Below are positions 35,346 through 60,401 of a stretch of 64,000 bases of DNA, in pieces. The stretch spans positions 43,193 to 107,192 of the forward strand of contig NZ_BPQV01000017.1 in NCBI RefSeq assembly GCF_022179465.1, in the 5' to 3' direction. This DNA is from Methylobacterium organophilum (GTDB taxonomy: Bacteria > Pseudomonadota > Alphaproteobacteria > Rhizobiales > Beijerinckiaceae). The notes beneath the pieces were generated by a model. That model was not told the DNA's origin and searched no databases. It saw only the letters and a list, made by a program, of their open reading frames with translations. Made by a program: the position numbers and the translations under genes. Within the stretch, counting starts at the first letter, position 1. The number at the start of each line of letters is the position of its first letter.

Positions 35346-35349
35346 ATCC

Positions 35350-38125: not shown

Positions 38126-38506
38126 TATTAATTAATTTTAATATTTACAGCTGATAAAATTGTTATTCATACAATCTGTCTTGACAAATATCAATTATTA
38201 CTAAAAGCAATTTTATTTTTCACCCTCGATACGATTATCTGTGCTTAATAAAAATATTTCTGACATCAATAGTTTATAAGCACGTGAGAAATGCAATAAA
38301 TCGCGGTTGCCGCGAAGACTAACTTCACCTACCGTTAGATAAATAATTATTTGTTAATATAAAAACCAGAGGCTATTTTTTGTTCCAGAAAACTGGAAAC
38401 AGAGGGATCAGTGACCTGCCCACAGAAGCGGCGGCAAAACAAAAACCCAAGCAGGAATGATTGGTTGCTGATAGCGGGAAGTCTCCACCAATTCGCCAGT
38501 CACACC
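38126..38506. other. AT-rich intergenic region closing the polysaccharide island
   Basis: About 380 bases with no gene I can support. It stays AT-rich to about 38380 and then turns GC-rich within roughly 100 bases before the fbiC stop, marking the right boundary of the low-GC island. No inverted repeat with a T run serving fbiC was seen. Confidence 0.5.
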
Positions 38507-40981
38507 TCATGAGCCCCTTCCATCGTTTGCGGTCTTAGCAAGGCGGCGGCTGGCGAAGCGGAGGGGCCGGTCTGCCGAGGTGGCGCGCCGGGGGAGGGGA
38601 TCGTTGACGACATCGGTGAGGAAGGGCGCGGCGGCTGCGGCGCGGGAGCGTTCCTCGGAAGCGAGGCCGTAGAGGGTCGTACGCTGGACCGGTACCCGGC
38701 CGCAGCGCCGGATCAGCGCCTCCATCGCGGCAGGCGTCATTTCCTGGCCATGCGCTGCGCCGGCGGAGCGGGAGATCGTCTCGTTCATCAGTGTGCCGCC
38801 GAGGTCGTTCACGCCGCTGCGGAGCGCCTGGGCGACGCCCTCCGCCCCGAGCTTGACCCAGGACGCCTGGATGTTGGGCACGAGCGGATGCAAGGCGAGG
38901 CGGGCGACAGCGTGCATCAGCAGCGTTTCCCGAAAGGTCGGTCCGCGCCGGGCCAAGCCCTTCAGGGCGATCGGCGCCTCCATATGCACGAAGGGCAGGG
39001 GTACGAATTCGGTGAAGCCGCCGGTGCGCCGCTGGAGGGCGCGGATCCTCAGGATATGGCGCGCCCAGTGCACCGGCCGCTCCACATGCCCGAACATGAT
39101 CGTGGCCGTGCTGCGCAGGCCGGCCCCATGGGCCGCCTCCATCACGGCGAACCACTGCGCCGTGTCGATCTTGTCCGGGCAGAGCACGGCCCGGACCTCG
39201 TCATCGAGGATCTCGGCGGCCGTCCCCGGCAGGCTCGACAGGCCCGCCGCCTTCAGCCGAGCCAGGTATTCGGCAAGCGGCAGACCAAGGGTGGCCGCGC
39301 CCTGCCAGACCTCCAGCGGCGAGAAGGCGTGGACATGCAGGCCGGGCACCGCCGCCTTCACCGCACGGCAGATGTCGAGATAAGTCTCGCCCGTATAGTC
39401 GGGATGGATGCCCCCCTGCATGCAGACCTCGGTCGCGCCCCGGCTCCAGGCCTCGCGGGCGCGCCGCTCGATCTCGTCCAGGCTGAGGTCGTAGGGCTTG
39501 CCCCGCAGGTGCTCGGCGGTCTTGCCCTTGGAGAAGGCGCAGAAGCGGCAACTGAGCGTGCAGAGATTGGTGTAGTTGATGTTGCGGGTGACGACGTAGC
39601 TGACCGTGTCGCCGTTCGTGCTCGCCCGCAGCTCGTCCGCGGCGGTGCAGACCGCGCGGAAGGCCTCGCCGCGGGCGGCGAACAGGGCGAGAAGGTCGCT
39701 CTCCCCGAGCGTGTGCCCGGCTTGGGCGCGCCGCAGGATGCCACCGAGGGCCGAAGTCGCCACAGGCGCCGCCCGACCATCCCCGAGGAAGCCGGTGGGC
39801 GGGTTGCGGGCTTCGCCCGGCGACCAGTCGTCGTCCCGGACGAAGCCGTCCGCATCGATCGCGCGCAGGGCCGGTGTGCGGAAAAGCGGGGCGAGCCAGC
39901 GCTCCGGCTCCCGCAGATGGGACGGATAGACCGGCAGGCGCTGCACGAGGTGCTTGCCCGCCGCCGCGGTCGCCCGCGCCAGGATGTCGAGATGCGGCCA
40001 GGGCGCCTCGGGGTTCACGTGATCCGGCGTCACGGGCGAGACGCCGCCCCAATCGTTGACGCCGGCCGCGATCATCCGGGGCAGCGCACCCTTGGCGAGG
40101 TTCGGCGGCGCCTGGATGCTCATGCCTGCGCCGAAGACCAGCCGCGCCACGGCGATCGTCCAGAGATGGTCCTCGAAATCCGGTTCCGGCGCCCCGGCCA
40201 TGGCCGTACCGGGCTTGGCACGGAAGTTCTGGACGATGATCTCCTGGAGATGGCCGTAGCGGTCGTGTAGGTCGCGTAGCGCCAGGAGCGCCTCGATCCG
40301 CTCGCGCCGCGTCTCACCGATGCCGATGAGCAGGCCGCTCGTGAAGGGGATGGCGCCCTCGCCGGCGAGCCGGATGGTCTCGAGCCGGGCGGCGGGGCGC
40401 TTGTCGGGGGAGCCGAAATGCGGGCCACCCCGCTGCGAAAGCCGCTCGCTCGCCGTCTCCAGCATGATGCCCATAGAGGCGCTGACGAGGCGCAGGCGTG
40501 CGAGGTCGTCCGCCTCCATCAGGCCCGGATTGAGATGAGGCATCAGCCCCGTCTCGCGAAAAACCCTTTCGGCGGCCTCGTACAGATAGTCCAGGGTGCG
40601 GGCGTGGCCGAGGACCGCCAAGCCCTCGCGGGCGGCGCGGTAGCGCAGCTCCGGCTTGTCGCCGAGGGTGAACAACGCCTCGGTGCAGCCGGCTTTCGCG
40701 CCCTGACGGGCGATGGCGAGAACATCCTCCAACGGCAGGAAGGCGGTACCGACCTTCGCCGGCGCGCGCGCGAAGGTGCAGTAGCGGCAGGTGTCGCGGC
40801 AGAGTTGGGTGAGGGGGATGAAGACCTTGCGCGAATAGGAGACCGTGTCGCCAAATCCCGCATCGCGCAGGGCCGCCGCCCGTGCCGTCAGAGCATCGAG
40901 GTCAAGGACCTCGGTCAGCGCCAGGGCCTCTTCGGCGGAAAGCCTCCCGAAGCCGGCCTCGTGGCCGAACGATGCGGTCAT
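38507..40981 (-). CDS. fbiC: Fo synthase, CofG-CofH fusion (7,8-didemethyl-8-hydroxy-5-deazariboflavin synthase)
   Basis: Makes Fo, the deazaflavin chromophore of coenzyme F420, from tyrosine and 5-amino-6-ribitylaminouracil. The 824-residue protein fuses two radical-SAM enzymes. The CofG half has CX3CX2C at C61, C65, C68 (LCRDTCRYCTFARAP) and the CofH half has it at C474, C478, C481 (LCTLSCRFCAFSKGK). Both halves carry further family motifs (LNPGLMEADDL; QGGIHPDYTGETYLDICRAV; FTEFVPLPFVH). The fused form is the actinobacterial FbiC type; archaea use separate proteins. It is the last gene of the operon, 10 bases after cofC. Confidence 0.95.
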   Translation of the reverse strand: MTASFGHEAGFGRLSAEEALALTEVLDLDALTARAAALRDAGFGDTVSYSRKVFIPLTQLCRDTCRYCTFARAPAKVGTAFLPLEDVLAIARQGAKAGCTEALFTLGDKPELRYRAAREGLAVLGHARTLDYLYEAAERVFRETGLMPHLNPGLMEADDLARLRLVSASMGIMLETASERLSQRGGPHFGSPDKRPAARLETIRLAGEGAIPFTSGLLIGIGETRRERIEALLALRDLHDRYGHLQEIIVQNFRAKPGTAMAGAPEPDFEDHLWTIAVARLVFGAGMSIQAPPNLAKGALPRMIAAGVNDWGGVSPVTPDHVNPEAPWPHLDILARATAAAGKHLVQRLPVYPSHLREPERWLAPLFRTPALRAIDADGFVRDDDWSPGEARNPPTGFLGDGRAAPVATSALGGILRRAQAGHTLGESDLLALFAARGEAFRAVCTAADELRASTNGDTVSYVVTRNINYTNLCTLSCRFCAFSKGKTAEHLRGKPYDLSLDEIERRAREAWSRGATEVCMQGGIHPDYTGETYLDICRAVKAAVPGLHVHAFSPLEVWQGAATLGLPLAEYLARLKAAGLSSLPGTAAEILDDEVRAVLCPDKIDTAQWFAVMEAAHGAGLRSTATIMFGHVERPVHWARHILRIRALQRRTGGFTEFVPLPFVHMEAPIALKGLARRGPTFRETLLMHAVARLALHPLVPNIQASWVKLGAEGVAQALRSGVNDLGGTLMNETISRSAGAAHGQEMTPAAMEALIRRCGRVPVQRTTLYGLASEERSRAAAAAPFLTDVVNDPLPRRATSADRPLRFASRRLAKTANDGRGS

Positions 40982-40991
40982 GGCAGGCCTC

Positions 40992-41708
40992 TCATGCAGG
41001 CAGGCGGGTCGGGGGCGGATCGGCGCGGGAGACGCCGGGCGGGGCTTCGGCGAAGCGCCAGATCGCGCCGGGGAGCGCCTTCAGCAAGGTGCGGCTACGG
41101 CTCGGCGGGCCGCCCTGCGCGAGGAAAGCGCTCAAGTCCCCCGGCCGGTCGATGTCGCGGACGAGCCGGGGCAGGTCGAGAACGCGGGGAGTGATCCCGC
41201 AGGCGCGCGCTGCCTGCAAATGATGGTGGAAGCTGTCAGGCCCATAGAGAAAGGGGATTGCCTGCACCGGCGAGCAGGCGAGCAGGTTCGTGCCCCTGTC
41301 TGCGGCAGCTGGCACGAGGCTGACCGCCGGGGCAGCCCCGTGCCGGACGACGACGTGATCGAGATCCTCCGGCATGACCTGGGGAAGGTCGGCGGCCAGC
41401 ACCAGGATACCCGCGGCGCCATCCTCTGCGAGGATGCGAGCGCCCTCCGCCACAGCAACGCAGGTGCCGGCCTCGGCCCTGTCCGCGATGATCCGGGCGC
41501 CGGCCCGGCGCGCCTGCGCGGTGACCTCTGCATCCGCCGTGATCACCGCGACCCCGGCGAGAGTCGAGGCCCGGGTCGCAGCCTCGATCACGTCGAGGGC
41601 CATGGCACGGGCGAGCCGTGCCCGCTCGTCCGGATCGAGCAGGGGCGCCAGGCGCTGCTTGGCCTGCTCCAGGCGCTTCACGGGAATCAGGCACCAGGGG
41701 GCGGTCAC
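40992..41708 (-). CDS. cofC: 2-phospho-L-lactate guanylyltransferase type protein CofC/FbiD
   Basis: Activates a phosphorylated three-carbon acid (2-phospholactate, phosphoenolpyruvate or, in one known group, 3-phosphoglycerate) with GTP for F420 side-chain assembly. The 238-residue protein begins with WCLIPVKRLEQAKQRLAPLL, the nucleotide-binding start of CofC, and has AAGILVLAADLPQVMPEDLD (metal-binding Asp) and DRGTNLLACSP. Substrate preference cannot be read safely from sequence. It overlaps cofD by four bases and is followed by fbiC. Confidence 0.93.
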   Translation of the reverse strand: MTAPWCLIPVKRLEQAKQRLAPLLDPDERARLARAMALDVIEAATRASTLAGVAVITADAEVTAQARRAGARIIADRAEAGTCVAVAEGARILAEDGAAGILVLAADLPQVMPEDLDHVVVRHGAAPAVSLVPAAADRGTNLLACSPVQAIPFLYGPDSFHHHLQAARACGITPRVLDLPRLVRDIDRPGDLSAFLAQGGPPSRSRTLLKALPGAIWRFAEAPPGVSRADPPPTRLPA

Positions 41709-42682
41709 AGCGGTCTCCGCGGCAGGGTCGCGGCGAGGTCGAGGGCGGCTCGGGCGAGATCCTCCCGGTCCGACAGGCTCGTCATCACCGTGTTGGTGAC
41801 GAGGCTCGGCAGGCCGAGCCGGGGCGCTTCCGCCGCGTCGGCCGCATCGAGCACCATGCCGTCGAGGAGATCGCCGTAATGGGCGGCCACCGCCTGCGTG
41901 CTCACGGGCAGGCCGAGCTCGGCCATGATCTTGGCGGTCGGTCCTTTCACCGCCTTACCCGCGACCACCGGCGAGACCGCGACGACGGGCGCGGCCGCCC
42001 TCCGCAGGGCGGCCCGCAGGCCGGGGATCGCCAGGATGGGGTCGATGCTGAGATAGGGGTTCGACGGGCAGATCAGGATCGTGGCAAGATCCTCGTCCGC
42101 GAGCAGGCCCGGCAGGTCGGCGGGCATGCGTGCAGTCTGCGCGCCGGCAAAGGTCAGCCCGGTCAGGACCGGCGCGCAGCGGCGAGCCACGAAATAGGTC
42201 TGGAAGGGCAGGGGGCCTTCCTCGGTCTGCACGATCGTCCGGACGGGATCGTCGCTCGCCGGCATCAGCCGGGCGCGGATGCCGAGGCTCCGGGCGATCT
42301 CGGCGGTGACTTCGGAGAGGGTAGAGCCCTCCCGCAAGCGCTGCGTGCGATGGACATGGGTGGCGAGATCACGGTCGCCCAGCATGAACCAGGTCTCGCC
42401 CCCGAGCCGGCCGAGAGCTTCCAGGAAGCCCCAGCTCTCCCCCGCGAGGCCCCAGCCACGCTTCCGGTCGCTCAGGCCAGCCAAGGTGTAGGTCACGGTG
42501 TCGATGTCCGGACAGATCGTGAGACCGAGATGCTCGAAATCGTCGCCGGTGTTGACGAGAACGGTCAGCCGGTCCGGCTCCAGCACCCGGGTCAGGCCGA
42601 GAGCCAGCTTGGCGCCGCCGATGCCGCCGCACAGGGCGAGCACACGCTCCGGGCGCAGGGGCCGCTCCGCTCTGTCCGTCAT
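41705..42682 (-). CDS. cofD: 2-phospho-L-lactate (PEP) transferase CofD/FbiA
   Basis: Transfers the activated phospho-acid onto Fo to give F420-0 or dehydro-F420-0. The 325-residue protein from the ATG at 42682 has the N-terminal motif VLALCGGIGGAKLALGL, the LVNTGDDFEHLGLTICPDIDTVTYTLAG stretch, and CPSNPYLSIDPILAIPGLR and VSPVVAGKAVKGPTAKIM; these are diagnostic for CofD. It overlaps cofE and cofC by four bases each, so the three are made together. Confidence 0.96.
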   Translation of the reverse strand: MTDRAERPLRPERVLALCGGIGGAKLALGLTRVLEPDRLTVLVNTGDDFEHLGLTICPDIDTVTYTLAGLSDRKRGWGLAGESWGFLEALGRLGGETWFMLGDRDLATHVHRTQRLREGSTLSEVTAEIARSLGIRARLMPASDDPVRTIVQTEEGPLPFQTYFVARRCAPVLTGLTFAGAQTARMPADLPGLLADEDLATILICPSNPYLSIDPILAIPGLRAALRRAAAPVVAVSPVVAGKAVKGPTAKIMAELGLPVSTQAVAAHYGDLLDGMVLDAADAAEAPRLGLPSLVTNTVMTSLSDREDLARAALDLAATLPRRPL

Positions 42683-43455
42683 CGGAAGAGATCCCCGGCC
42701 TTGTCGCGCAAGAGGGCCGCAGCGGGCATTGATGGGTGCTGCCAGGACAGGCCCTGCACCAGCACGGCGGGCACGCCCTCGGCGGCCTGCCCCATGAGCA
42801 GGGAGGCAGCCGCCGCGATCTCGTCGGCGAAGCCGATCTGAGTGACGCGGAGCGCGCGCCCGAACAGGTCCGGCGTGCCGATGCAATCGATCAGAGCCGG
42901 CAGCCCAGCGGCGCCGAGTGCCACGCCGACCGTGCCGTGCCGCCAAGCCCGGCCGAAGCTATCGGCCATCACGACGGCGAGGTCGTCCCTTCCATAGCGG
43001 GCGGAAAGCGCCTCCCGCGCCCGGGTGCACCAGCCATCCGGATCCTCCGGCAGCAGTAGCACCCGGTCCCCATCCTCCGGCGTGCCCACGTTCGACTGGT
43101 CGACACCGGCATTGGCCATGACGAAGCCGAGGCGATGGGCGACGATCAGGGCGCCCCTGCGGGTGGCGACGACCTCGTCGGATTCCGACAGGATCACCTC
43201 GACGAGGCGGGGATCCTTGTCGACCATGGCGGCGATGTCCCGCGCCCGCGCCGAGGGGACGACGTCGGCGAGATCGACGAAGCGTCCCTCCGCCTTCGAG
43301 ACCACCTTCTGGGCGACCACCAGCACGGCCCGAGGCCCCGGCACGAGCCCCGCCCGATCGATGGCCGCGATCAGCAGGCCCATGAGGTCATCGCCGGGGC
43401 GCACGAGGGGCAGCCCCGGAAGCGGCGTTAGCGTAAGGGGCGTCTGGACTCTCAT
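42679..43455 (-). CDS. cofE: Coenzyme F420:L-glutamate ligase CofE (stand-alone)
   Basis: Adds gamma-linked glutamates to F420-0 with GTP. The 258-residue protein shows LPGLPLVRPGDDL, VVAQKVVSKAEGRFVDLADV, ARDIAAMVDKDPRLVEVIL and VMANAGVDQSNVG, all typical of CofE, and VVMADSFGRAWRHGTVGVALG in the active-site region. It lacks the C-terminal FMN reductase domain found in actinobacterial FbiB, and no such domain is encoded elsewhere in the operon. It starts at ATG 43455, 28 bases after fgd, and overlaps cofD by four bases. Confidence 0.95.
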   Translation of the reverse strand: MRVQTPLTLTPLPGLPLVRPGDDLMGLLIAAIDRAGLVPGPRAVLVVAQKVVSKAEGRFVDLADVVPSARARDIAAMVDKDPRLVEVILSESDEVVATRRGALIVAHRLGFVMANAGVDQSNVGTPEDGDRVLLLPEDPDGWCTRAREALSARYGRDDLAVVMADSFGRAWRHGTVGVALGAAGLPALIDCIGTPDLFGRALRVTQIGFADEIAAAASLLMGQAAEGVPAVLVQGLSWQHPSMPAAALLRDKAGDLFR

Positions 43456-43483
43456 CCGGGGCGTCGTCTCAAGCTCGGCCCCC

Positions 43484-44485
43484 TCAGGCGAGGGCGCGCA
43501 GGCGCGGCAGCACCTGCTCCGCGTAGAGACGCAGGAACCGGACCTGATCCGTGCCGGGGGCATGGAAGACGAGATGGCGGAAACCGAGCTCGATATAGGG
43601 GCGGATGCGCGCCACGTGCTCCTCCGGATCGTCAGAGACGATCCAACGGCTTGCCGCTCGCTCCAGGGGAAGCGCGTCGGCCAGACGCTCCATGTCGAGG
43701 GGATCCTCCACGGACATCTTCTCCTCGCCCGTCAGGGCCAGGGCGGCCCAGTGGCGTGTGTCCTGCAGCGCCCGGGCTCGGTCCGTGTCGAAGGAGACCT
43801 TCATCTCGATCATCCGATCGACCGCGCTCTCGGGACGTTCGGCCGCGGCAAGGCCTGCCGAAAGGTTGGGCAGAAGCGTCTCGCTGTAGAGCGTCGACGG
43901 CTTTCCGGAGGTACAGATGAAGCCATCCGCGACGCGCCCGGCGAATTTGGTGATGAGCGGTCCGGCCCCGGCGATGTAGATCGGCACCGGGATCTCGGGC
44001 CGGTCGTAGATCGTGGCGTTGCGGGTCTCGTAGTAGGTGCCGGAGAAGGAGACGCGCTCCTGTGTCCAGAGCTCGCGGATCAGCTCCACGGATTCCTTCA
44101 GTCGTGCGAGGCGCTCCTTCGGCTCCGGGAAGGCGAGGCCGGTGGCCGGCGTCTCGTTCAGCGCCTCGCCGGTGCCGATGCCGAGGACGACCCGGCCCGG
44201 GAACAGGGATCCGAGCGTTCCGAAGGCATGGGCCACGATGGAGGGATGGTAGCGGAAGGTGGGCGTGAGCACGCTCGTGCCCATGACGATCCGGCTCGTC
44301 CGCGCGCCCAGCGCCCCCATCCAGGCGACGGAGAAAGGCGCGTGCCCGTCCGTGTGTCGCCAGGGCTGGAAATGGTCGCTGATGAAGACGGAATCGAAGC
44401 CGGAGGCCTCCGCCTCGACGGCGAAGTCGAGGAGCTGGCGCGGCCCGAACTGCTCTGCCGAGGCCTTGTAGCCGAGGGTCAGCAT
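43484..44485 (-). CDS. fgd: F420-dependent glucose-6-phosphate dehydrogenase type (FGD family)
   Basis: A 333-residue luciferase-like (TIM barrel) F420 oxidoreductase that closely resembles mycobacterial FGD1, which oxidises glucose-6-phosphate and reduces F420. Start: MLTLGYKASAEQFGPRQLLDF. By recall of the M. tuberculosis structure, F420/catalytic residues D39, H40, W44, E109 correspond to D37, H38, W42 and E107 here. Phosphate-site residues T195, K198, K259, R283 correspond to T192, K195, K256 and R280 (in CTSGK, GEEKMS, ASRWIV). All are present, so glucose-6-phosphate is the best guess. It overlaps hyuA by seven bases and precedes cofE by 28. Confidence 0.88.
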   Translation of the reverse strand: MLTLGYKASAEQFGPRQLLDFAVEAEASGFDSVFISDHFQPWRHTDGHAPFSVAWMGALGARTSRIVMGTSVLTPTFRYHPSIVAHAFGTLGSLFPGRVVLGIGTGEALNETPATGLAFPEPKERLARLKESVELIRELWTQERVSFSGTYYETRNATIYDRPEIPVPIYIAGAGPLITKFAGRVADGFICTSGKPSTLYSETLLPNLSAGLAAAERPESAVDRMIEMKVSFDTDRARALQDTRHWAALALTGEEKMSVEDPLDMERLADALPLERAASRWIVSDDPEEHVARIRPYIELGFRHLVFHAPGTDQVRFLRLYAEQVLPRLRALA

Positions 44486-46530
44486 GCGATGTCCTCGCGG
44501 ATGATCATCTGGCCCGTGGGGTCCATGGCGCAGGTCTGTCCCGGCAGCACCAGGGTGGTGGTGGTCGCTTCCTCGACGAGGGCAGGGCCCGAGACGGTCT
44601 GACCGGGACGCAAGCCCTCGCGGCGGTAGACCGGGCTGTCGGCCCAGCCCTGACCATCGAGATACAGGGGCCGGTGCCGATCCGGCACCGGCGGCGTGTG
44701 TCTGCGGTCGTCGCTGCGCGGCACGGGCACGGTCTCGACCGGCGCCTCGGCCTGCAGGTGGATCGTGGTCAGCTCGGCGGCGACCCCGGGCAGATCGAAG
44801 GTGAACGCCTTCCGGTGGGCGGCATGAAACCGCTCCAGCACCTCGGCCGGCGAGGCGTCGGGCGGGCAATCGAAGGCGACGCTGTGCTCCTGGTTGCGGT
44901 AGCGGCCCTCGACGATGGGGGTCAGCACGAGCGCCTTCGCGTCATCGACACCGAAATAGGCCGCCGCCTCCTTCGCCAGCTCGGCGAACAGGACCGGCAG
45001 CCGTTCGGTCAGCTCGTCGTCGATGCCGGCGAGGATCATGCGGCGCAGATCGATCCGCGGACGCGCCGCGAGCATCCCCCAGGCCGAGAAGATGCCGGGC
45101 TGGGTCGGGATGATGCAGGCGCGCACGCTCATCTCGCGGGCGAGCTTGGCGGCGAGCAGCGGCCCGGCGCCTCCGGAGACGAGGAGGGCGAAGTCCCGCG
45201 GGTCGTGGCCGCGCTGGATGCTGATCAGCTTCAGGGCGCTGATCATGGTCTCCTCGGCCACCTCGATGAGGGCCGAGGCCGCTTCCTCCACGCTCATGCC
45301 CAGAGGCTCGGCGATCGTGGCCACAGCCCTGCGTGCCGCCTCCAAGTCGAGGGCGATGCGACCCTCGCCGAAGGTGACGGGATCGATCACGCCGGTGACG
45401 AGCTTGGCGTCGGTCACGGTCGGCCGGGTGCCGCCGAGCCCGTAGCAGGCGGGGCCTGGATTGGAGCCGGCGCTGTGCGGGCCGACGCGCAGGCGGTTGC
45501 CCGCATCGAGCCAGGCGATCGAGCCGCCGCCGGCACCGACCTCGACGATGTCCACCACCGGCACCTGCACGGTGTAGCCGGGGGAGGTGCGTGTCTTCTC
45601 CAGCTTGTAATCGGGGGCGAGGCTCGGCTGCCCGCCGCGGATCACCGAGCACTTGGCCGTGGTGCCGCCGACATCGAGATAGATCAGGTCCGGCTCGGCC
45701 AGCACCTGCGCGATGCGCGCCGCGCCGGCCACCCCCCCGGCCGGCCCGGATTCGATCAGGGTGAGCGGCGCCCGCGCCGCTTGGTCGAACCGGGCGATGC
45801 CGCCGTTCGACTGCATGGCGTAATACGGCCCCTCGAGGCTGCCCTTGGCCAGCGAGCGTTCGAGATTGGCGAAGTAGCGCTGCACGATGGGCTGGACGTA
45901 GGCGTTGAGCGCCACGGTGTTGGAGCGCTCGTATTCGCGCCATTGCCGCGAGATCTCGTGGCTGGCGCAGACCGGCACGTCCGGCAGGCATTCGCGAAGG
46001 ATCTGCGCGCAGCGCTCCTCATGGGCCGGATTCGCGTAGCTGTGCAGGAGAACGATACCGATCGTCTCGACGCCCTGCGCCCTACAAGCATCGGCGCAGG
46101 CGCGCACGTCGTCCTCGTTCAGGGGCTCCACTATCTCGCCGGCTGCGTTCAGGCGCTCGCGCACCTCGAAGCGGAGGTGGCGCGGCACGAAGGCGTCGGG
46201 GGTCTTCGAGCGCAAATTGTAGAGGTCAGGGCGGGTGCCCCGGCCAATGGCGAGCACGTCGCGGAAGCCGCGGGTGGTCAGCAAAGCCGTGCGCACGCCC
46301 TTGCGCTCGGTGATGGCGTTGATGACCGTGGTGCCGCCATGGACGAAGAAGCGCACCTCGGTCGGGTCAAGGCCCTGGTTTTCACCGGCCCGGTCGATGG
46401 CGTGCATCACGCCCTGGGACTGGTCATCGGTCGTGGTGAGCACCTTGGCGGTGTAGAGTCGGCCCTCACGCTCGTCGTAGCCGATCAGGTCGGTGAAGGT
46501 GCCGCCGACATCGGTCGCGAGACGGATCAT
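44479..46530 (-). CDS. hyuA: Hydantoinase/oxoprolinase subunit A (HyuA family), copy 1
   Basis: A 683-residue ATP-grasp-like/actin-fold subunit of the hydantoinase/oxoprolinase superfamily, which includes N-methylhydantoinase, 5-oxoprolinase, caprolactamase and acetone/acetophenone carboxylases. The N-terminal ATP motif is TDVGGTFTDLIGYD. Further marks are HGGTTVINAITERKG, the SNGGIARF segment, YLDVGGTTAKCSVI and SAGSNPGPACYGLGG. The true substrate (a cyclic amide, lactam or ketone) cannot be read. It overlaps hyuB by four bases and fgd by seven, so it is co-translated with the F420 genes. Confidence 0.93.
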   Translation of the reverse strand: MIRLATDVGGTFTDLIGYDEREGRLYTAKVLTTTDDQSQGVMHAIDRAGENQGLDPTEVRFFVHGGTTVINAITERKGVRTALLTTRGFRDVLAIGRGTRPDLYNLRSKTPDAFVPRHLRFEVRERLNAAGEIVEPLNEDDVRACADACRAQGVETIGIVLLHSYANPAHEERCAQILRECLPDVPVCASHEISRQWREYERSNTVALNAYVQPIVQRYFANLERSLAKGSLEGPYYAMQSNGGIARFDQAARAPLTLIESGPAGGVAGAARIAQVLAEPDLIYLDVGGTTAKCSVIRGGQPSLAPDYKLEKTRTSPGYTVQVPVVDIVEVGAGGGSIAWLDAGNRLRVGPHSAGSNPGPACYGLGGTRPTVTDAKLVTGVIDPVTFGEGRIALDLEAARRAVATIAEPLGMSVEEAASALIEVAEETMISALKLISIQRGHDPRDFALLVSGGAGPLLAAKLAREMSVRACIIPTQPGIFSAWGMLAARPRIDLRRMILAGIDDELTERLPVLFAELAKEAAAYFGVDDAKALVLTPIVEGRYRNQEHSVAFDCPPDASPAEVLERFHAAHRKAFTFDLPGVAAELTTIHLQAEAPVETVPVPRSDDRRHTPPVPDRHRPLYLDGQGWADSPVYRREGLRPGQTVSGPALVEEATTTTLVLPGQTCAMDPTGQMIIREDIAC

Positions 46531-48257
46531 GCGTGCAAGGCCTCCGGGGCCGCATCCGAGGGGCCGGTCCGGCCGTAGAGGCGCAGGGCCTCGTCAGAGG
46601 TGAGGAAGCCGTCGGCGATGTCCGCGGCAATGGCAGCGCCATCCCGTTCGGCGGCCGGCCCCCAGCCGCCGCCGCCGCCGGTCCGGATGCGCACCACGTC
46701 GGCGCGGTTCAGGGGCCGGGGCGGTGAGCGGGTGAGCTCGGTGCTGCCGCCGGCGGGCGAAAGCACCTCAAGCCCGTTGCAGCTTCCGTCAGTGCCGCCC
46801 TCCATGCCCCAGGGGGCGGTGCGGGTGCGCCCGATGCCGCAATGGACCTGCGCCCTGTCGCTCAGGATCTCGTAGTCGCGCACGAGCCCGAACCCGCCGC
46901 GGAAGCGGCCGGCACCGGCACCGCCGGCCGTGTTGTAGGCGTATTGACGGACGAGGAGCGGGAACTTGGTCTCGATGACCTCGACGGAGTAGTTGTAGGT
47001 GTCGCCATCGGTGAGCGCGATCAAGCCGCTGGCGCCGTCCCGGTCGCGGCAGGCACCCCAGCCGCCGTGATGCGGCTCGATATGCACGAAGGGCCGGCCG
47101 TCGTCGCCCTCGCCCGCAATGTAGGTCGCGCACAGGCTCGTATAGGACCCCGCGGACATCCGCTCGGGTACGAGACCGGCCACCGCCTTCCAGAGCAATT
47201 CGGAGGCATGCACCGAGCCTTCGTAGTACCAGCCGGTGGGCGAGGGCTTCTCGGCGGTGAACAGGGTACCGGCCTCCGCCACGACAGTCAGGGGCCGGAA
47301 CCAGCCCTCGTTCGAGGGCTCGTGGGGAGCGACCAGCGCCTTGAACACGGTCTTAACAGCGGATTCGAGGGCTCCGCGGGAGCAATTGATCGGCCCGGGC
47401 CGGGCGGCGGGGCAGCCGGTATAGTCGACCATCATCGTGTCGCCGAGGATCGTCACGGCGACCTGCGTAACGATGGCGGCATCGGTGGCGCCGTCGCCGT
47501 CGATGACGTCCGCGGCGCGGTAGGTGCCGTCGGGGAGGGCAGCGATGGCGGCGCGGCTGCGGACTTCGCTGTCATCGAGCAGCCGCTCGATCGAAGCGCG
47601 GGTCACCGGAAGGCCGTAACGCCCGACGATCTCGAGCACCCGCTTCTCCGCCACGCGCAGGGTCGCGACCTGGGCGTTGAGGTCGCCCAGCGCGAGATCC
47701 GGCATGCGCACGTTCTCGGTGATGATCCGGACCATCTCCGGGATCAGCACGTCGCCCCGGGCAATCCGGATGCCGGGCAGGCGCAATCCCTCCTGGAACA
47801 CGGAATTGGCGTCCGGCGGCAGGCTGCCGGGCACCGCGCCGCCGACATCGAGCCAATGGGCGACGTTGACTGCGAAGGCGATCACACGACCTTCGAAGAA
47901 GATCGGCCGGACCAAGGCGAGGTCACAGGCATGGGTACCGCCGCTGAAGGGATCGTTCGTGACGAGCATGTCACCGGGCGCCAGATCGTCCCCGAAGCGG
48001 CGCATCAGGGAGCGGACCTGCGTCGAGAAGGTGCCGGTGAACAGCGTGATGCCGTTGGCCTGGGCAACGAGCGCGCCATCCGCGTCGCAGATCCCGCAGG
48101 CGAAATCCAGAACCTCGTAGATGACCGGGCTCATGCTGGTGCGGGCCATCACGATGGCCATCTCGTCGACGGCCGACAGGAGCTTGCCCTGAATGATCTC
48201 GTGGGTCACGGCGGTCAGCTCCGCCGTTCCCCCGGCTCCCGGGGGGGGTATCGACAT
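46527..48257 (-). CDS. hyuB: Hydantoinase/oxoprolinase subunit B (HyuB family), copy 1; first gene of the F420 operon
   Basis: A 576-residue partner subunit of the HyuA family enzyme. Motifs include AVTHEIIQGKLLSAVDEMAIVMARTSMSPVIYE near the N-terminus, ANGITLFTGTFSTQV, LVTNDPFSGGTHACDLALV, the FVHIEPHHGGWGA His pair that could bind metal, and GRTRTAPWGMEGG. I chose the ATG at 48257 with GAGGA upstream. An in-frame ATG at 48344 would place a perfect 12-bp inverted repeat (48293-48330) inside the gene, so the shorter form is preferred. It overlaps hyuA by four bases. Confidence 0.9.
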   Translation of the reverse strand: MSIPPPGAGGTAELTAVTHEIIQGKLLSAVDEMAIVMARTSMSPVIYEVLDFACGICDADGALVAQANGITLFTGTFSTQVRSLMRRFGDDLAPGDMLVTNDPFSGGTHACDLALVRPIFFEGRVIAFAVNVAHWLDVGGAVPGSLPPDANSVFQEGLRLPGIRIARGDVLIPEMVRIITENVRMPDLALGDLNAQVATLRVAEKRVLEIVGRYGLPVTRASIERLLDDSEVRSRAAIAALPDGTYRAADVIDGDGATDAAIVTQVAVTILGDTMMVDYTGCPAARPGPINCSRGALESAVKTVFKALVAPHEPSNEGWFRPLTVVAEAGTLFTAEKPSPTGWYYEGSVHASELLWKAVAGLVPERMSAGSYTSLCATYIAGEGDDGRPFVHIEPHHGGWGACRDRDGASGLIALTDGDTYNYSVEVIETKFPLLVRQYAYNTAGGAGAGRFRGGFGLVRDYEILSDRAQVHCGIGRTRTAPWGMEGGTDGSCNGLEVLSPAGGSTELTRSPPRPLNRADVVRIRTGGGGGWGPAAERDGAAIAADIADGFLTSDEALRLYGRTGPSDAAPEALHA

Positions 48258-48292
48258 CCCTGTGTCCTCGTCTCGTGAAGGTTGTCGGGGCT

Positions 48293-48406: not shown

Positions 48407-48814
48407 TCAGGCGCGCCAGGGCCCGCAATTGAACATCGCCTCGGTGTCTTCATAGGCATCCCACAGAAGGATGCGTCCGTCCTTCACCGTGAAGACCCAG
48501 GCCCATTTGGCCGTGTATTCCTTGCCGCTGATCCGCGAGGCGGCGACCTCGGTGCCGGTGACCGCGACGTTGTCGCCATCCACCACCCAGACCTTCTGGG
48601 TATGCCCGCGGATCTCGAGCGCGGCGGGCATCACCTCGAAATATTCGACGAGCTTGGCCTTGCCGGTCCAGCGGCCGGCCCAGGGGAGGGCGCCGGTGCC
48701 GGGCATGTCGATGGCGCCGTCCTCGGCGAAGAGGGCGACCGCCCCGGCACTGTCACCGCTGGCGAGGCAAGCGAGGAAGTCCCGGATGACGCTCTCGGCG
48801 GTCTTTTCGGACAT
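48407..48814 (-). CDS. NTF2/SnoaL-like fold protein (nuclear transport factor 2 family)
   Basis: A 135-residue small alpha+beta barrel protein. It starts MSEKTAESVIRDFLACLASGDSAGAVALFAEDGAIDMPG, then WAGRWTGKAKLVEYFEVMP, and ends with WVFTVKDGRILLWDAYEDTEAMF, the usual order of SnoaL/ketosteroid-isomerase-like proteins. Such folds serve as isomerases, dehydratases, hydrolases or binding partners. The start at 48814 has AGAGG upstream. It lies between the ABC transporter genes and the hyuB operon on the same strand, so it is probably part of the same pathway. Confidence 0.82.
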   Translation of the reverse strand: MSEKTAESVIRDFLACLASGDSAGAVALFAEDGAIDMPGTGALPWAGRWTGKAKLVEYFEVMPAALEIRGHTQKVWVVDGDNVAVTGTEVAASRISGKEYTAKWAWVFTVKDGRILLWDAYEDTEAMFNCGPWRA

Positions 48815-50095: not shown

Positions 50096-51012
50096 CAGAC
50101 GCGCTCCTTCATGGCCGGGGACGCGACGAGCCCCTGCGGCCGCGCGAGCAGAATGACGATGACGAGGGCGAAGACGATGGCGTCGCGGAAACCGCGGATC
50201 TCCTCCGGGAGCAAGGCCTGGAGCAACACGCTGGCGACGCCGACGACATAGCCGCCCACCACCGTGCCGAGCAGACTGCCCATGCCGCCGATCACGGTGG
50301 AGATGAAGCCGAACAGCATCAGCGGCGTGCCCATCTCGTAGTCGAGCACGCCGGTCTGCACGACGAGGATCAACGCCGAGAAGCCGGCGATGATGCCGCT
50401 GAGCGCGAAGGCGGCGCCGATCACGCGGTTTCCGCGCACGCCCAGCATGCGTGCCATCTGGAAGTCCTCCGCCGCGGCGCGCATCTGCAGGCCGAGCGAC
50501 GTGCGGTTGAGGAAGGCGATCAGGCCGCCGAGGAAGACGACCGTGAGGGCGATCACCAGGAACTGGAGCCGCGGCACGCCGACATTCTCGGTGATCTGCG
50601 CGCTCTCCATCAGCCCCGACCACAGCCCCGCGGCTTTGGGCCGGCTGCCGTAGAACATGATCACCACGTTCTGGAGCGTGTAGCCCAGGGCGAAGGAGGC
50701 GATCATCAGCGTTGCCGGGGAAGCGTTGCGAAGGCGCCGGAACACCGCCGCTTCCGAAGCCACCGCCAGCAGCGTGACGAGGGCGAGGATGCCGCCCACG
50801 AGCAGGGGCGTCGGCAGGGCGCCGATGCCCATCGTCGCCTCCGCCTCGTGCGAGGGCATGACCAGGGCATAGGCCCCGATGGTGATGAAGGCGCCGTAGG
50901 CGAAATTCACGAGGCGCAGCACGCCGAAGATGAGGCCGATGCCGAGCGCTGTGAGCGCGTAGAGGCTGCCGAGGCTGAGCGCTGTGATCAGGATCTGGAG
51001 CGCGTTGCTCAT
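50095..51012 (-). CDS. livH: Branched-chain amino acid-type ABC transporter permease LivH
   Basis: Inner-membrane permease, 305 residues, eight or so helices. The N-terminal signature SLGSLYALTALGIGLIFGVLRLVNFAYGAF is diagnostic for LivH. The EAA-type loop LQMRAAAEDFQMARMLGVRGNRVIGAAFALSG and SLLGTVVGGYVVG follow. It overlaps livM by one base and livF by four, so permeases and ATPases are made from one transcript. Confidence 0.95.
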   Translation of the reverse strand: MSNALQILITALSLGSLYALTALGIGLIFGVLRLVNFAYGAFITIGAYALVMPSHEAEATMGIGALPTPLLVGGILALVTLLAVASEAAVFRRLRNASPATLMIASFALGYTLQNVVIMFYGSRPKAAGLWSGLMESAQITENVGVPRLQFLVIALTVVFLGGLIAFLNRTSLGLQMRAAAEDFQMARMLGVRGNRVIGAAFALSGIIAGFSALILVVQTGVLDYEMGTPLMLFGFISTVIGGMGSLLGTVVGGYVVGVASVLLQALLPEEIRGFRDAIVFALVIVILLARPQGLVASPAMKERV

Positions 51013-51749
51013 GCGGCGATCCCTCCGGCTGGAGCGTCGGTGAAGCCGAAATAGGCTTGACGGATGCGGTCGGTGTCGGCCGGGTTCGCGGGCGAGCCCT
51101 CTGCCTGAAGCGCGCCGCCGCGCAGCACGTAGATCCGCCCGGCGGCCTCCAGCGCCCGTTCGAGCTTCTGCTCGACGATCAGCAGGGTCAGCCCGTCGCT
51201 GCGGTTGAGGTCGAGCAAGGTCTCGTAGACCCGATCCACCACCAGGGGGGCGAGGCCGAGGGACGGCTCGTCGATCACCATCAGGCGCGGCTTGCTCAGG
51301 AGGGCGCGGGCGATGACCAGCATCTGCTGCTCGCCGCCGGAGAGCTTGCCGGCAGGCTGGCCGCGGCGCTGCCCGAGCTGGGGAAAGCGCTCCATCAGCG
51401 CCGCCATCTCGCGCCGCGCCGCTGCCTTGTCGCGGCGCAGGGACAGGCCGACCAGGAGGTTCTCCTCCACGGTCATGGTGGTGAAGGTATGCCGCCCCTC
51501 GCGCACATGGGCGAGGCCGAGCCGGGCGATGTCCTCCGGCGCGCGCCGGTCGATGCGGGTGCCGCCGAACAGGATCCCGCCCTTGGTCGGGGCGAGGATG
51601 CCGGAGACGGTGAGCAAAGTGGTGGTCTTGCCGGCCCCGTTCGGGCCGACGATGGCGACCACTTCCCCTTCCGCCACCCGTAGGCTGACGTCGCGCAAAG
51701 CGGCGAGGCGGCCGTAATGGACGCTGACCCGGTCGAGCTCAAGCTGCAC
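51009..51749 (-). CDS. livF: Branched-chain amino acid-type ABC transporter ATPase LivF
   Basis: ATPase subunit, 246 residues from GTG at 51749. Walker A GPNGAGKTTTLLTVSG, the LivF-type stretch LGLAHVREGRHTFTTMTVEENLLVGL, signature LSGGEQQMLVIARAL, Walker B LMVIDEPSLGL and switch His/Glu region LLIVEQKLERAL are intact. It overlaps livG by 11 bases and livH by four. A longer in-frame start at 51884 would run back into livG and is rejected. Confidence 0.93.
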   Translation of the reverse strand: MQLELDRVSVHYGRLAALRDVSLRVAEGEVVAIVGPNGAGKTTTLLTVSGILAPTKGGILFGGTRIDRRAPEDIARLGLAHVREGRHTFTTMTVEENLLVGLSLRRDKAAARREMAALMERFPQLGQRRGQPAGKLSGGEQQMLVIARALLSKPRLMVIDEPSLGLAPLVVDRVYETLLDLNRSDGLTLLIVEQKLERALEAAGRIYVLRGGALQAEGSPANPADTDRIRQAYFGFTDAPAGGIAA

Positions 51750-52488
51750 GGCTGCGCTCCTCTCCGAAATAGGCCCGGACCACGGCCGGGTCGGCGCGCA
51801 CCGCTTCCGGCGAGCCACGGGCGATGGTGCGGCCGGATTCGAGCACATGGATGCGGTCGCAAACGGTGGTGACGAGGCGGACATTGTGCTCGATCAGAAG
51901 TACGCCGCTGCCGACGCGCTTCGGGATCTCCCGGATCAGAGCGATCAGCCGGTCGCATTCGAGGTCGGACATGCCGGCCGCAGGCTCGTCGAGCAGCAGG
52001 AACGCCGGGCGTCCGGCCAGCGCGCGGGCGATGCCGACCCGCCGCTCGTCGGCATAGGGCAGCACGCCGGTGGGCAAAGCCGCCGCGTCCGACAGGCCGG
52101 TCCAGGCGAGGATCTCCCCGGCCTCCTCCGCGGCCCGCCGGCGCGACAGCCCCGCGGAGAGCCCAGCGAGTTCCACGTTCTCCCGCACGCTCATGCTGTG
52201 GAACAGGCGGCCGGCCTGGAAAGTGCGGGAGACGCCGCGCCGGCGCACCCGCTGTGGCGGCAGCCTCTTCAGGGAGACGTCGCCCAGAAGCACGTCGCCG
52301 CCGCTAAGGGGCTGAAATCCTGTCACGGCGTTGACGAGGGTGGTCTTGCCAGCCCCGTTGGGGCCGATGAGCCCCAGGATCTCGCCGCCGCTCAAGGTCT
52401 CGGAGACATCCTCGATGGCCAGAATGCCCTGAAACGTCACGCAAGCATTGCGTATATGAAGATTTCCAACTTTTGGTTGAATATCCAT
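51739..52488 (-). CDS. livG: Branched-chain amino acid-type ABC transporter ATPase LivG
   Basis: ATPase subunit, 249 residues. Walker A GPNGAGKTTLVNAVTGF, GVSRTFQAGRLFHSMSVRENVELAG, a variant signature LPYADERRVGIARALA (the usual 'LSYGQ' glycine region is altered), Walker B FLLLDEPAAGM and switch region LLIEHNVRLV are visible. It is the first gene of the liv operon; the periplasmic binding protein is encoded 5 kb away with the second hyuAB pair. The 108 bases upstream are shared with the divergent lysR-type gene. Confidence 0.9.
   Translation of the reverse strand: MDIQPKVGNLHIRNACVTFQGILAIEDVSETLSGGEILGLIGPNGAGKTTLVNAVTGFQPLSGGDVLLGDVSLKRLPPQRVRRRGVSRTFQAGRLFHSMSVRENVELAGLSAGLSRRRAAEEAGEILAWTGLSDAAALPTGVLPYADERRVGIARALAGRPAFLLLDEPAAGMSDLECDRLIALIREIPKRVGSGVLLIEHNVRLVTTVCDRIHVLESGRTIARGSPEAVRADPAVVRAYFGEERSRAA
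52439..52453. promoter_or_regulatory. Palindrome ACGCAA-N3-TTGCGT near the livG start
   Basis: ACGCAA (52439-52444) and TTGCGT (52448-52453) form a 15-base palindrome 35 bases inside livG. It shares its CGCAA..TTGCG core with the larger palindrome at 52513, so both may be sites for the divergent LysR-type regulator. Confidence 0.4.
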
Positions 52489-52512
52489 GGCAGGGCGCGC
52501 TCCTCAGACCAT

Positions 52513-52528
52513 GCCGCAAGCTTGCGGC
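52513..52528. promoter_or_regulatory. 16-bp perfect palindrome in the livG/lysR intergenic region
   Basis: GCCGCAAGCTTGCGGC is fully palindromic and lies 25 bases upstream of livG and about 70 bases upstream of the LysR-type start. LysR proteins typically bind dyads between their own gene and a divergent target, which fits. Confidence 0.5.
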
Positions 52529-52596
52529 GGTGTGTGGATCGGCGCGGCATTCTTCTTGCTGACGCTCCGGCGGTCCGAGAGAAGGGGTTGCCGCCC

Positions 52597-53526
52597 GTGG
52601 TCATCGAAATCCGCCACGTCAGGGCGTTCCTGGCCGTCGCTTCCGAACTGCATTTCGGACGGGCCGCGAACCAGCTCAACATCGCCCAGCCGGCCCTGAG
52701 CCGGACGATCCAGAACCTCGAGGCGATCCTCGGGGTCCAGCTCCTGGAACGCAGCACACGCAGCGTGCAACTGACGCCGGCCGGCCAGCTCTTCCGTGAC
52801 CAGTTCGGCAAGCTGATGCGGCAGATGAAGGACGCCGTGCAGGCCACCCAACGCATGGGTCGGGGCGAGACTGGTCTCCTCTCGGTCGCCTACGCCGATG
52901 CCGCCCTGTGCGGGCCGATGCCGGAGATCATCCGCCGCTTCCGCCGGGACAACCCGAACGCCAAGCTGGAACTCACGCAGGGCAGCCCCGAAACGGTGCT
53001 GCAACTGCTCGCGGACCGCCGGATCGATTGCGGGTTCCTGCCGGGCCCGGTGCGCGACGTCCGGCTCGACGCCCGCTGCATCCATTCCGATCTGCCAGTC
53101 GTGGTGATGCCGGTCTCGCACCGCCTGTCCCTGAAGACCAAGCTCACCCTGGCGGACCTCGCCCGCGAGCGCTTCGTGACCTGCGGCGGCGAGGGCTGGG
53201 AGAACCTTCAGCGCCTGTGCCTGAAGGCCGGCTTCCTGCCGCAGCTCCACCAGGAGGTGCCGCACCAGGATGCGCTGCTGGCCTTCGTGGCGGCGGAGGC
53301 GGGCATCGGTGTCTGCCCAGCCGGCGTGCAGATGAGCGCGCGCAGCGGCGTCGTGATACGGCCCCTGGTGGAGACTCCCCTCAGCTTCGATCTGCATTGT
53401 GCCTGGCATCGGGAGAACACCTCTCGGATCGTGGTCGATTTCGCCGCTCTGGTGGCGCGCTTCGCAGCGGGCCAGGGATCAGAGCCGGCGGCGATGGGCC
53501 GCGTGCATGCCGGCACGGCGTCATGA
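52597..53526 (+). CDS. LysR-family transcriptional regulator
   Basis: A 309-residue LysR-type regulator. Residues 1-62 form the helix-turn-helix (IRHVRAFLAVASELHFGRAANQLNIAQPALSRTIQNLEAILG), followed by the linker helix and a two-lobed effector domain (DCGFLPGPVRDVRLDARCIHSDLPVVVMPVSHRL; VAAEAGIGVCPAGVQM). The GTG at 52597 is preceded by AGAAGGGG; a TTG at 52588 is also in frame. It is divergent from livG, with two related palindromes nearby, and overlaps the end of the second hyuA by six bases. It probably controls the liv operon, and perhaps both hyu clusters, with the pathway substrate as effector. Confidence 0.92.
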   Translation: MVIEIRHVRAFLAVASELHFGRAANQLNIAQPALSRTIQNLEAILGVQLLERSTRSVQLTPAGQLFRDQFGKLMRQMKDAVQATQRMGRGETGLLSVAYADAALCGPMPEIIRRFRRDNPNAKLELTQGSPETVLQLLADRRIDCGFLPGPVRDVRLDARCIHSDLPVVVMPVSHRLSLKTKLTLADLARERFVTCGGEGWENLQRLCLKAGFLPQLHQEVPHQDALLAFVAAEAGIGVCPAGVQMSARSGVVIRPLVETPLSFDLHCAWHRENTSRIVVDFAALVARFAAGQGSEPAAMGRVHAGTAS

Positions 53527-59922: not shown

Positions 59923-60401
59923 CCGACGTCGCCGCCACCATCAACGGACGAGAGGAGATCCTCCCGGTCGCCCCCCTGGAGAGTCTGCTCGACGCCCTGC
60001 GTCACCGCCTCTTCCTCACGGGCGCCAAGGGCGGCTGCCACGAGGGCGTCTGCGGCGCCTGCACCGTGCTGGTCGACGGCGTGCCCGTAAACAGCTGCCT
60101 CTACCCCGCCGAGGCGGTGGCCGGCCACCATGTCGAGACGGTGGAGGGATTGACGGATCTGGTCGCCCGCGCCGTGCAGGAGAGCATGGTCGCCGCGGGC
60201 GCGGTCCAGTGCGGCTACTGCACCCCCGGCTTCGTCGTCATGCTGACCAGCCTGCTGCGGGCCGAGCCCGCGCCAGACGAGGATCGGATCCGGCGGGCCC
60301 TGATGGGCAATCTCTGCCGCTGCACCGGCTACGCGCAGATCGTCGACGCGGCGCTCGCCGCCGCCCGCCGGCTCCAGGGAGCGCCCGATGGAAACCTTTG
60401 A
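59919..60401 (+). CDS. Molybdenum hydroxylase [2Fe-2S] subunit (CoxS/XdhC-like)
   Basis: A 160-residue iron-sulfur subunit with two [2Fe-2S] domains. The plant-type ferredoxin site is GCHEGVCGACTVLVDG and a later NSC; the second, all-helical site is CGYCTPGFV plus NLCRCTGY. All eight cysteines are present. The ATG at 59919 gives a four-base overlap with coxM; an ATG at 59907 is also possible. The 3' end overlaps the large subunit gene by 14 bases. Confidence 0.95.
   Translation: MTDVAATINGREEILPVAPLESLLDALRHRLFLTGAKGGCHEGVCGACTVLVDGVPVNSCLYPAEAVAGHHVETVEGLTDLVARAVQESMVAAGAVQCGYCTPGFVVMLTSLLRAEPAPDEDRIRRALMGNLCRCTGYAQIVDAALAAARRLQGAPDGNL

Follow-up and report, generated by a model that had tools for sequence, protein, structure and literature searches.

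Coenzyme F420 genes beside HyuAB hydrolase genes in Methylobacterium organophilum, with a proposed role in cyclic-amide breakdown

Why should an alphaproteobacterium keep the genes for coenzyme F420 in one tight series with those of an ATP-dependent cyclic-amide hydrolase? The question is raised by a stretch of 64,000 nucleotides of Methylobacterium organophilum DNA (contig NZ_BPQV01000017.1, positions 43,193 to 107,192; "the window" below), in which seven minus-strand genes, hyuB-hyuA-fgd-cofE-cofD-cofC-fbiC, lie at 38507-48257 with exactly the order, coordinates and spacing given in the initial annotation. The available text of a 2021 review states that the role of F420 in Proteobacteria is open and asks for experiments; it records traces of F420 in two Alphaproteobacteria and describes the bacterial F420H2-dependent reductases and F420-reducing dehydrogenases outside Actinobacteria as lacking experimental study (PMC8498797). 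In one Rhizobiales species, a complete F420 pathway has been noted (PMC5794936). It is proposed here, with moderate confidence, that the seven genes belong to one LysR-controlled catabolic operon for the breakdown of N-heterocycles or cyclic amides, in which F420 is made for a reductive step; gene content, gene order, protein families and the recurrence of parts of the locus elsewhere are the evidence read directly.

F420 genes, HyuAB pairs and their neighbours

The seven genes are the following.

38507..40981, minus strand: fbiC, a CofG-CofH fusion (Fo synthase); NF006687, 1147.9 bits (cut-off 1018)
40992..41708, minus strand: cofC (guanylyltransferase), GTG start; TIGR03552, 152.2 (cut-off 105)
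41705..42682, minus strand: cofD (transferase); TIGR01819, 298.2 (cut-off 257.45)
42679..43455, minus strand: cofE (F420-0:glutamate ligase, single domain); TIGR01916, 241.4 (cut-off 180.65)
43484..44485, minus strand: fgd; TIGR03554, 479.5 (cut-off 420), end-to-end match with FGD1 structures 5lxe and 3b4y
44479..46530, minus strand: hyuA, ATP-binding subunit, hydantoinase/oxoprolinase family; PF01968, PF05378, PF19278
46527..48257, minus strand: hyuB, hydrolase subunit; PF02538, 532.3 bits

Four of the junctions are overlaps (hyuB/hyuA 4, hyuA/fgd 7, cofE/cofD 4 and cofD/cofC 4 bases), and the other two are gaps of 28 (fgd/cofE) and 10 bases (cofC/fbiC). FbiC, CofC, CofD and CofE each score above a curated NCBIfam cut-off, bearing out the F420 biosynthesis set first annotated, and FbiC keeps both radical-SAM CxxxCxxC motifs, at residues 61 and 474. 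The word "complete" needs a caveat, since CofE is devoid of the FbiB-type C-terminal domain; genome-wide, the best match to the family of this domain reached 58.9 of 249.55 bits, and the control genomes were likewise all under the cut-off. A dehydro-F420 reductase is required for the phosphoenolpyruvate route only, not for other donors. The predicted role of FGD as F420 reducer is in line with its family score, and the TSGK, EEK and SRW motifs are kept in the alignment with 5lxe. It is the one FGD-family match over cut-off in the genome (a TIGR03557 match), and no Fno was found there over cut-off (best 40.7 of 149.8 bits); among the families searched, FGD and Fno, FGD is the sole known F420 reducer type over cut-off. 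PF04075, a consumer of the F420H2 quinone-reductase type, had no match in the genome, but the controls were blank too, so this result is uninformative.

HyuA and HyuB exceed the Pfam gathering scores (PF01968/PF05378 and PF02538, respectively) and are, judged by sequence, a pair of the ATP-dependent hydantoinase/oxoprolinase family. HyuA keeps the motifs VGGTFTD and DVGGTTAK and HyuB the motifs LDFAC, NDP, THACD and AHWL, which presumably form the ATP site and the metal site. For both subunits the best solved relative is N-methylhydantoinase 7hk5, followed by the 6yra pair, recorded as 5-oxoprolinase/hydantoinase, which we take to be a caprolactamase. The likeness to these ATP-dependent enzymes consists of near full-length alignment and of the conserved motifs; the difference lies in the low overall similarity and in the caprolactamase equivalog cut-offs of NCBIfam, which HyuA and HyuB did not reach (475.5 of 1000 and 236.6 of 1000).

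Upstream of hyuB, on the same strand and absent from the earlier note, are the genes livG-livF-livH-livM-snoaL, beyond which lie a divergent regulator and a second HyuAB pair.

38301..38315, minus strand: terminator-like hairpin after fbiC, the sole site called in 38000-53000
48407..48814, minus strand: SnoaL_2/NTF2-like protein; PF12680, 59.6 bits
48998..50095, minus strand: livM-like permease; top NCBIfam match LivM, 59.9 of 366 bits
50095..51012, minus strand: livH-like permease; NCBIfam UrtB/LivH type, under cut-off
51009..51749, minus strand: livF-like ATPase; top NCBIfam match LivF, under cut-off
51739..52488, minus strand: livG-like ATPase, at the head of the putative operon; top NCBIfam match LivG, under cut-off
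52489..52596, no strand: 108-bp livG/lysR intergenic space, putative control region, from the sequence
52597..53526, plus strand: lysR-type regulator, divergent from livG; start 52597 (GTG) or 52588 (TTG)
53521..55578, minus strand: hyuA2; PF01968, 48% identity to hyuA
55566..57425, minus strand: hyuB2; PF02538, 49% identity to hyuB; start 57425 or 57533
57562..58755, minus strand: livK-like periplasmic binding protein; PF13458, 146 bits

From livG to hyuB the junctions are overlaps of 11, 4 and 1 bases, followed by gaps of 183 and 149 bases on either side of snoaL, and the twelve genes from livG to fbiC probably form one operon, of which the seven would be the tail. The terminator-like hairpin lies about 190 bases past fbiC, and none was called between livG and fbiC; shuffled sequence yielded 5.5 such sites on average, so the count proves nothing and only the place of the site is of interest. 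Three promoter-like sites were called, every one past fbiC, and no sigma-70-like site was called in the 108-bp livG-lysR space. A LysR regulator divergent from its target is a common layout; here the family assignment comes from NCBIfam LysR models, AlsR being the top one (220.1 bits, cut-off 430, E 4.2e-65), and a minus-strand open reading frame at 52504-53409 was discarded as a gene, as it is the antisense of lysR. The presence of two HyuAB pairs suggests two amide bonds or two substrates; the whole genome holds three HyuA and three HyuB, besides one PxpA on another contig (C10).

On the other strand, beyond livK, the window carries a molybdenum (Mo) hydroxylase and an oxidoreductase of the luciferase-like (LLM) class, which reach near the contig end.

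59041..59922, plus strand: FAD subunit of the Mo hydroxylase (XdhB-like); PF00941, PF03450; NF043083, 137.9 (cut-off 310)
59919..60401, plus strand: 2Fe-2S subunit (XdhC-like); NF043084, 159.5 (cut-off 217)
60388..62700, plus strand: molybdopterin subunit (XdhA-like); PF02738, PF20256, PF01315; under every equivalog cut-off listed
62747..63742, plus strand: LLM-class oxidoreductase, putative F420H2 consumer; PF00296, 157.8 bits

Taken as the predicted operon, livK-hyuB2-hyuA2 and this divergent set, the locus spans about 25 kb. Among solved structures, the six closest to the LLM enzyme are all F420-dependent Mer, and it is likely the best candidate for the F420H2 consumer. The initial annotation had placed an F420H2 step within the seven genes; FGD is a reducer of F420 and not a consumer of F420H2, and the likely consumer lies outside 38507-48257. 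An attempt to pin the consumer by co-occurrence with CofD failed, the LLM enzyme being without matches at E <= 1e-40 in the other genomes of the order sample.

The operon has a GC content of 0.699, close to that of positions 1-26000 (0.701). The adjoining region, 26000-38400, starts by a tRNA-Glu gene at 26207, carries glycosyltransferase genes and has a GC content of 0.577 against 0.70; these features led to the low-GC stretch of 26-38 kb being set apart from the locus, and it is probably an inserted surface-polysaccharide region that ends beside the F420 operon.

Hydrolases beside cof genes in other genomes

Whether such a combination recurs was examined in 111 cof loci from elsewhere. They comprise five loci of the class sample (from eight other genomes with FGD, of which L039, L043 and L044 are without cofE and cofD in the stretch), 20 of the order sample's 28 CofD loci (G000, G465, G499, G551, G555, G577, G599 and G619 being outside the set), six of 30 CofD-bearing plasmid records, and named contigs with the best 80 of at least 551 confirmed CofE relatives, a choice biased towards close ones. 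Partial CofD pieces in G569:C35, G612 and G627 were left out of the locus count. The loci are not independent: L040 and L048 are identical in sequence, as are L041 and L053, and many others are mutually related; many also end at a contig edge within 10 kb. Related cof loci occur in Sinorhizobium meliloti R28 pSymA, Aminobacter carboxidus DSM 1086, Azospirillum canadense DS2 and Cupriavidus numazuensis LMG 26411. CofD exceeded its cut-off in 26 of the 249 order-sample genomes, own included, and had no match in the eight other sampled genomes of the same family; the F420 module is therefore patchy and was probably acquired. FGD was over cut-off in 9 of 385 class-sample genomes, again with the own genome included.

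The F420 reducer nearby divides the loci into 54 with FGD only, 36 with Fno only and 21 with neither. Of the loci with FGD only, three carry a Mo hydroxylase and three Hyu genes, and PxpA, an Rv2161c-type LLM enzyme and a CoA transferase are found in none. Among those with Fno only, PxpA is present in 12, a Mo hydroxylase in 14, an Rv2161c-type LLM enzyme in 13, a CoA transferase in 13, M20 in seven and Hyu in one; the fullest of them hold a varying selection of Liv transporter, Mo hydroxylase, PxpABC, Fno, cofE-cofD-cofC-fbiC, PALP, CoA transferase, LLM and M20 genes. PxpABC is another, unrelated ATP-dependent 5-oxoprolinase. Wherever it stands near cof genes, Fno is there too, and Liv, Mo hydroxylase and LLM genes are frequent companions. 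Of the 28 order-sample CofD loci, three (L175, L178 and L189) have PxpA within 3 kb of CofD, against 0.043 expected from 36 PxpA copies placed uniformly (P = 1.3e-5), a null that is lenient, because catabolic genes cluster.

As for HyuAB itself, its coupling to F420 in a conserved order is not borne out: the exact order hyuB-hyuA-fgd-cofEDC-fbiC recurs in 0 of the 111 other loci, many of which reach contig edges, and fgd-cofE-cofD-cofC is a common order among proteobacterial cof loci. The neighbourhood of hyu and cof genes is nevertheless not confined to this genome, as HyuAB genes run in the same direction as cof genes in L176 and L113, and the same locus holds both in G437. In L176, from the same order, hyuA-hyuB-LLM-CoA ligase-LLM-thioesterase-Fno-cofE-cofD-cofC-fbiC lie on one strand with small gaps and overlaps. 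In L113 (Hyphomicrobiales bacterium Dino_bin37), positions 712-12526 read, on one strand, hyuA-hyuB-AtzD/TrzD ring-opening hydrolase-binding protein-ABC ATPase, further genes, then amidase-cofE-nitroreductase-cofD; cofC and fbiC were not found in this stretch, and a separate dehydro-F420 reductase may be encoded by the nitroreductase gene that lies between the cofE and cofD genes. G437, with livH-livM-livG-hyuA-hyuB-M20-...-XdhABC-...-cofE-cofD-...-fgd-cofC-fbiC-...-LLM, nearly repeats the parts list of the window with catabolic proteins 26-46% identical to those of the window; it differs in that some intervening genes lie on the opposite strand, a single HyuAB pair is present, and the LLM enzyme is of another kind. 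In L038, Liv and hyuAB genes adjoin cof genes and FGD, and in L071 and L119 hyuA is on the opposite strand from cofE and cofD.

Parts of this combination recur in two of the six plasmid cof loci that were opened. One is L193, on the symbiotic plasmid pSymA of S. meliloti R28, with an amidohydrolase annotated pyrC, a Liv transporter, npdG, cofD, cofC and fbiC, and further genes for a CoA transferase, an F420 LLM enzyme, a deacylase, a transhydrogenase and Xdh; the other, in A. rubi, holds PxpA, LLM, cof genes and gabT. The plasmid neighbourhoods were read from PLSDB gene tables, which are incomplete.

Some further loci were recorded in passing. Another type of cof locus is seen in L181, L184, L186, L188 and L190: the protein in the place of FbiC is matched as two separate pieces (in L186, at a contig end, in part), Fno adjoins cofE, and four of the five have an LLM gene weakly similar to that of the window. 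L197, on plasmid 3 of Variovorax sp. PBL-E5, a strain from linuron-contaminated soil, has separate cofG and cofH together with genes for a RidA-family protein, an LLM enzyme and a GTP-binding protein. Planctomycetota and Chloroflexi contigs of metagenome-assembled genomes (L055 and L117) carry cof loci whose CofE is 61% and 56% identical to that of the window, either by transfer or by binning error. Finally, a cluster of LuxR-type regulator-hyuB-hyuA-ABC transporter recurs on plasmids of Aminobacter, Pararhizobium, Leisingera and Paracoccus (L165-L168), its HyuA proteins being close relatives of that of the window.

Ancestry of the cof genes

A tree of CofE, CofD and FbiC was built with a quick search for 70 rows, the window and the 69 of 111 loci with all three proteins long enough; support was taken from the Shimodaira-Hasegawa-like approximate likelihood ratio test (SH-aLRT), with no bootstrap. 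The window falls in a group of 13 rows (SH-aLRT 99), whose 12 other members comprise 11 Fno loci, four of these with PxpA, and one with no reducer detected. Its sister row is L171 (support 95), where Liv, Fno and LLM were seen and no Pxp, whereas L047, a locus with Pxp, Mo hydroxylase and Fno, is closest both in path length and in identity (71%). The main FGD clade, of 33 rows (25 FGD, seven with neither reducer and one Fno), does not include the window, and forcing the window into it was rejected, though modestly (approximately unbiased (AU) test, p-AU 0.038). FGD loci occur outside the main FGD clade too: L179, L183 and L187 are nearer to the group of the window, and a few lie elsewhere. For the FGD protein of the window, the highest identity (77%) is with the FGD of G473, in no supported group.

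Because its cof genes group there, the window can be likened to an Fno-type locus in which HyuAB stands in for PxpABC, and FGD in place of Fno. The simplest history offered is that FGD replaced Fno in such a locus and HyuAB took the place of PxpABC. With Fno-PxpABC loci such as L047, L175 and L189 the window has in common the importer, the Mo hydroxylase, an ATP-dependent cyclic-amide hydrolase and the F420 genes; unlike them, it has HyuAB twice for PxpABC, FGD for Fno and a Mer-like LLM enzyme for the Rv2161c-type, and it is without a CoA transferase, M20 or PALP gene. It shares with them the common descent of CofE, CofD and FbiC, and neither PxpABC nor Fno lies beside its cof genes.

The proposed pathway, its alternatives and known systems

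Co-transcription, induction, the order of reactions, the LLM cofactor and the class of substrate are what we infer in the proposed operon, which could work as follows. The Liv-type importer would bring in an N-heterocyclic or cyclic-amide compound, and a cyclic amide would arise through oxidation of a ring carbon adjacent to the nitrogen by the XdhABC-type Mo hydroxylase. A double bond of the ring would next be reduced by the Mer-like LLM enzyme, with F420H2 as donor of a low-potential hydride, before ATP-dependent ring opening by one HyuAB pair or both. FGD would reduce the spent F420 again at the expense of glucose 6-phosphate, and the cofactor itself would be provided by the cof/fbiC genes in the presence of substrate. 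More tentatively, and short of what we would call probable, Proteobacteria may hold an undescribed class of reductive pathways for N-heterocycles and cyclic amides, each with its own F420 synthesis genes, importer, Mo hydroxylase, F420H2-dependent LLM reductase and a freely exchanged ring-opening hydrolase, which may be PxpABC, HyuAB or an AtzD-like or dihydroorotase-like enzyme. Within this theme, in which F420 synthesis is embedded in the locus, the HyuAB form is a rare version.

Several observations weigh against the operon as a single F420-linked pathway. The catabolic genes are spread over several transcription units, and the 183- and 149-base gaps flanking snoaL could hold promoters. The LLM enzyme is under every NCBIfam cut-off listed, and none of the other 248 order-sample genomes gave a match to it at E <= 1e-40, so its cofactor is assigned from its family only; LLM enzymes may use FMN. 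PxpA was seen in 0 of the 54 FGD-type loci, and the window carries FGD, and Hyu is as rare by Fno (1/36) as by FGD (3/54). With the own genome excluded, one HyuB copy lies within 10 kb of CofD, against 0.49 expected (P = 0.39), as counted in the 20 fetched CofD loci and, for the remaining eight, from the listed HyuB places; G437 is outside this count because its HyuB is 10.4 kb from CofD. As PxpA is enriched and HyuB is not, the link between hydrolase and F420 rests statistically on PxpA and not on HyuAB; the catabolic pathway that the initial annotation had them share is plausible through the former, but HyuB gives it no enrichment of its own. The closest relatives of HyuA (26 plasmid records, 55-59% identity) are without annotated F420 genes in all four records opened, their clusters having a LuxR-hyuB-hyuA-ABC transporter layout whose transporter is of a kind other than that of the window. 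Of the six plasmid cof loci opened, four have neither Pxp nor Hyu annotated. As for the tree, the AU test was framed after the tree was seen, and the PxpA label is unclustered on it, needing 10 changes where 249 of 500 shuffles needed no more. Free gain and loss would give this pattern, and a loose association would too.

In the strongest of the alternatives, the neighbours share no pathway: a HyuAB-Liv module and an F420 module would have come together in a mobile catabolic region, the cofactor serving LLM enzymes encoded at other places in the genome. Five further LLM-type matches do lie elsewhere in the genome (seven in total, two of them in the window), HyuAB relatives occur without annotated F420 neighbours, HyuB is not enriched near cof genes, and the absence of CofD from the eight other genomes of the family is as expected for an acquired region. 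This explanation is nonetheless unlikely in view of the four-base overlaps, with no terminator-like site called inside the unit, of the recurrence of the parts list in G437 with only distant catabolic proteins, and of the enrichment beside cof genes of Pxp, the functional analogue of HyuAB.

In a second alternative the locus would encode a modified reductive purine (uric acid) pathway in which the part of YgfK is taken by an F420-dependent LLM enzyme, as in a proposal for Chloroflexota (PMC12507026). An Xdh-type hydroxylase, an LLM enzyme and a hydantoinase-family enzyme do share one locus here, and some Fno/Pxp-type loci add M20 (YgeY family) and PALP (YgeX family) genes; this reading is, though, very unlikely, as SsnA is under its cut-off genome-wide (178.1 of 455.5 bits), M20 and PALP are absent among the 20 genes annotated at 38507-63742, and the published HyuA is, in the text available, Amidohydro_1 (PF01979), not the PF01968 of the HyuA described here (PMC12507026).

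The two remaining alternatives concern HyuAB itself, and both are highly improbable. Some members of the HyuAB family open 5-oxoproline, and the family name could point to a housekeeping 5-oxoprolinase found in the F420 operon by happenstance, but PxpA and a third HyuAB lie elsewhere in the genome, and the two pairs here adjoin importer genes. The carboxylase-type enzyme that had also been considered, of the acetone/acetophenone ATP-dependent kind in a ketone pathway, shows weaker similarity to its subunits (acetophenone carboxylase scores of 289.6 of 1500, 199.6 of 1250 and 127.1 of 1500 against the NCBIfam cut-offs) and is rejected on subunit number, with two subunits only and no further carboxylase subunit gene recognised in the locus, and on the nearest structures of both subunits.

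If the class of pathways suggested above exists, F420 synthesis on demand would explain the mere traces found in Paracoccus and Oligotropha under the growth conditions tested. The loci also make the question concrete: is F420 induced by a cyclic amide or N-heterocycle, and do cells need fbiC to grow on that compound? Embedded F420 synthesis with exchangeable ring-opening enzymes would be surprising to specialists, and testable. In the open-licence literature of PubMed Central, searched by titles and abstract openings, no description of a HyuAB-F420 coupling was found; three papers there have F420 together with hydantoinase or 5-oxoprolinase (PMC11055893, PMC8305020 and PMC12542777).

The nearest published idea, as far as the accessible text goes, is the reductive uric acid pathway of anaerobes, for which a Mo hydroxylase, a reductase and ring-opening hydrolases are described, with an F420-dependent luciferase-family reductase proposed for Chloroflexota (PMC12507026); it makes an F420 step in N-heterocycle breakdown less novel. 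The likeness lies in the clustering of these enzymes and in the putative F420-dependent LLM reductase; unlike the window, the published cluster comes with no mention of F420 synthesis genes in that text (PMC12507026), and the pathway does not cover the window because the genome has no SsnA over cut-off and the hydrolase is of another family. In picrate and dinitrophenol degradation, LLM enzymes of Rhodococcus, Nocardia and Nocardioides catalyze the F420H2-dependent transfer of hydride to an aromatic ring (PMC8498797), which resembles the proposed step in being an LLM hydride transfer from F420H2 in a catabolic pathway; that system differs in belonging to Actinobacteria and acting on nitroaromatics, and in the consulted portion of the review it is described with neither a cyclic-amide hydrolase nor embedded F420 synthesis. 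With the proteobacterial F420 loci, as presented in the same portion (PMC8498797), the window shares the FbiC fusion, CofC, CofD, CofE and an FGD or Fno reducer; unlike them, it has its F420 genes at the downstream end of a catabolic series that includes an importer and HyuAB.

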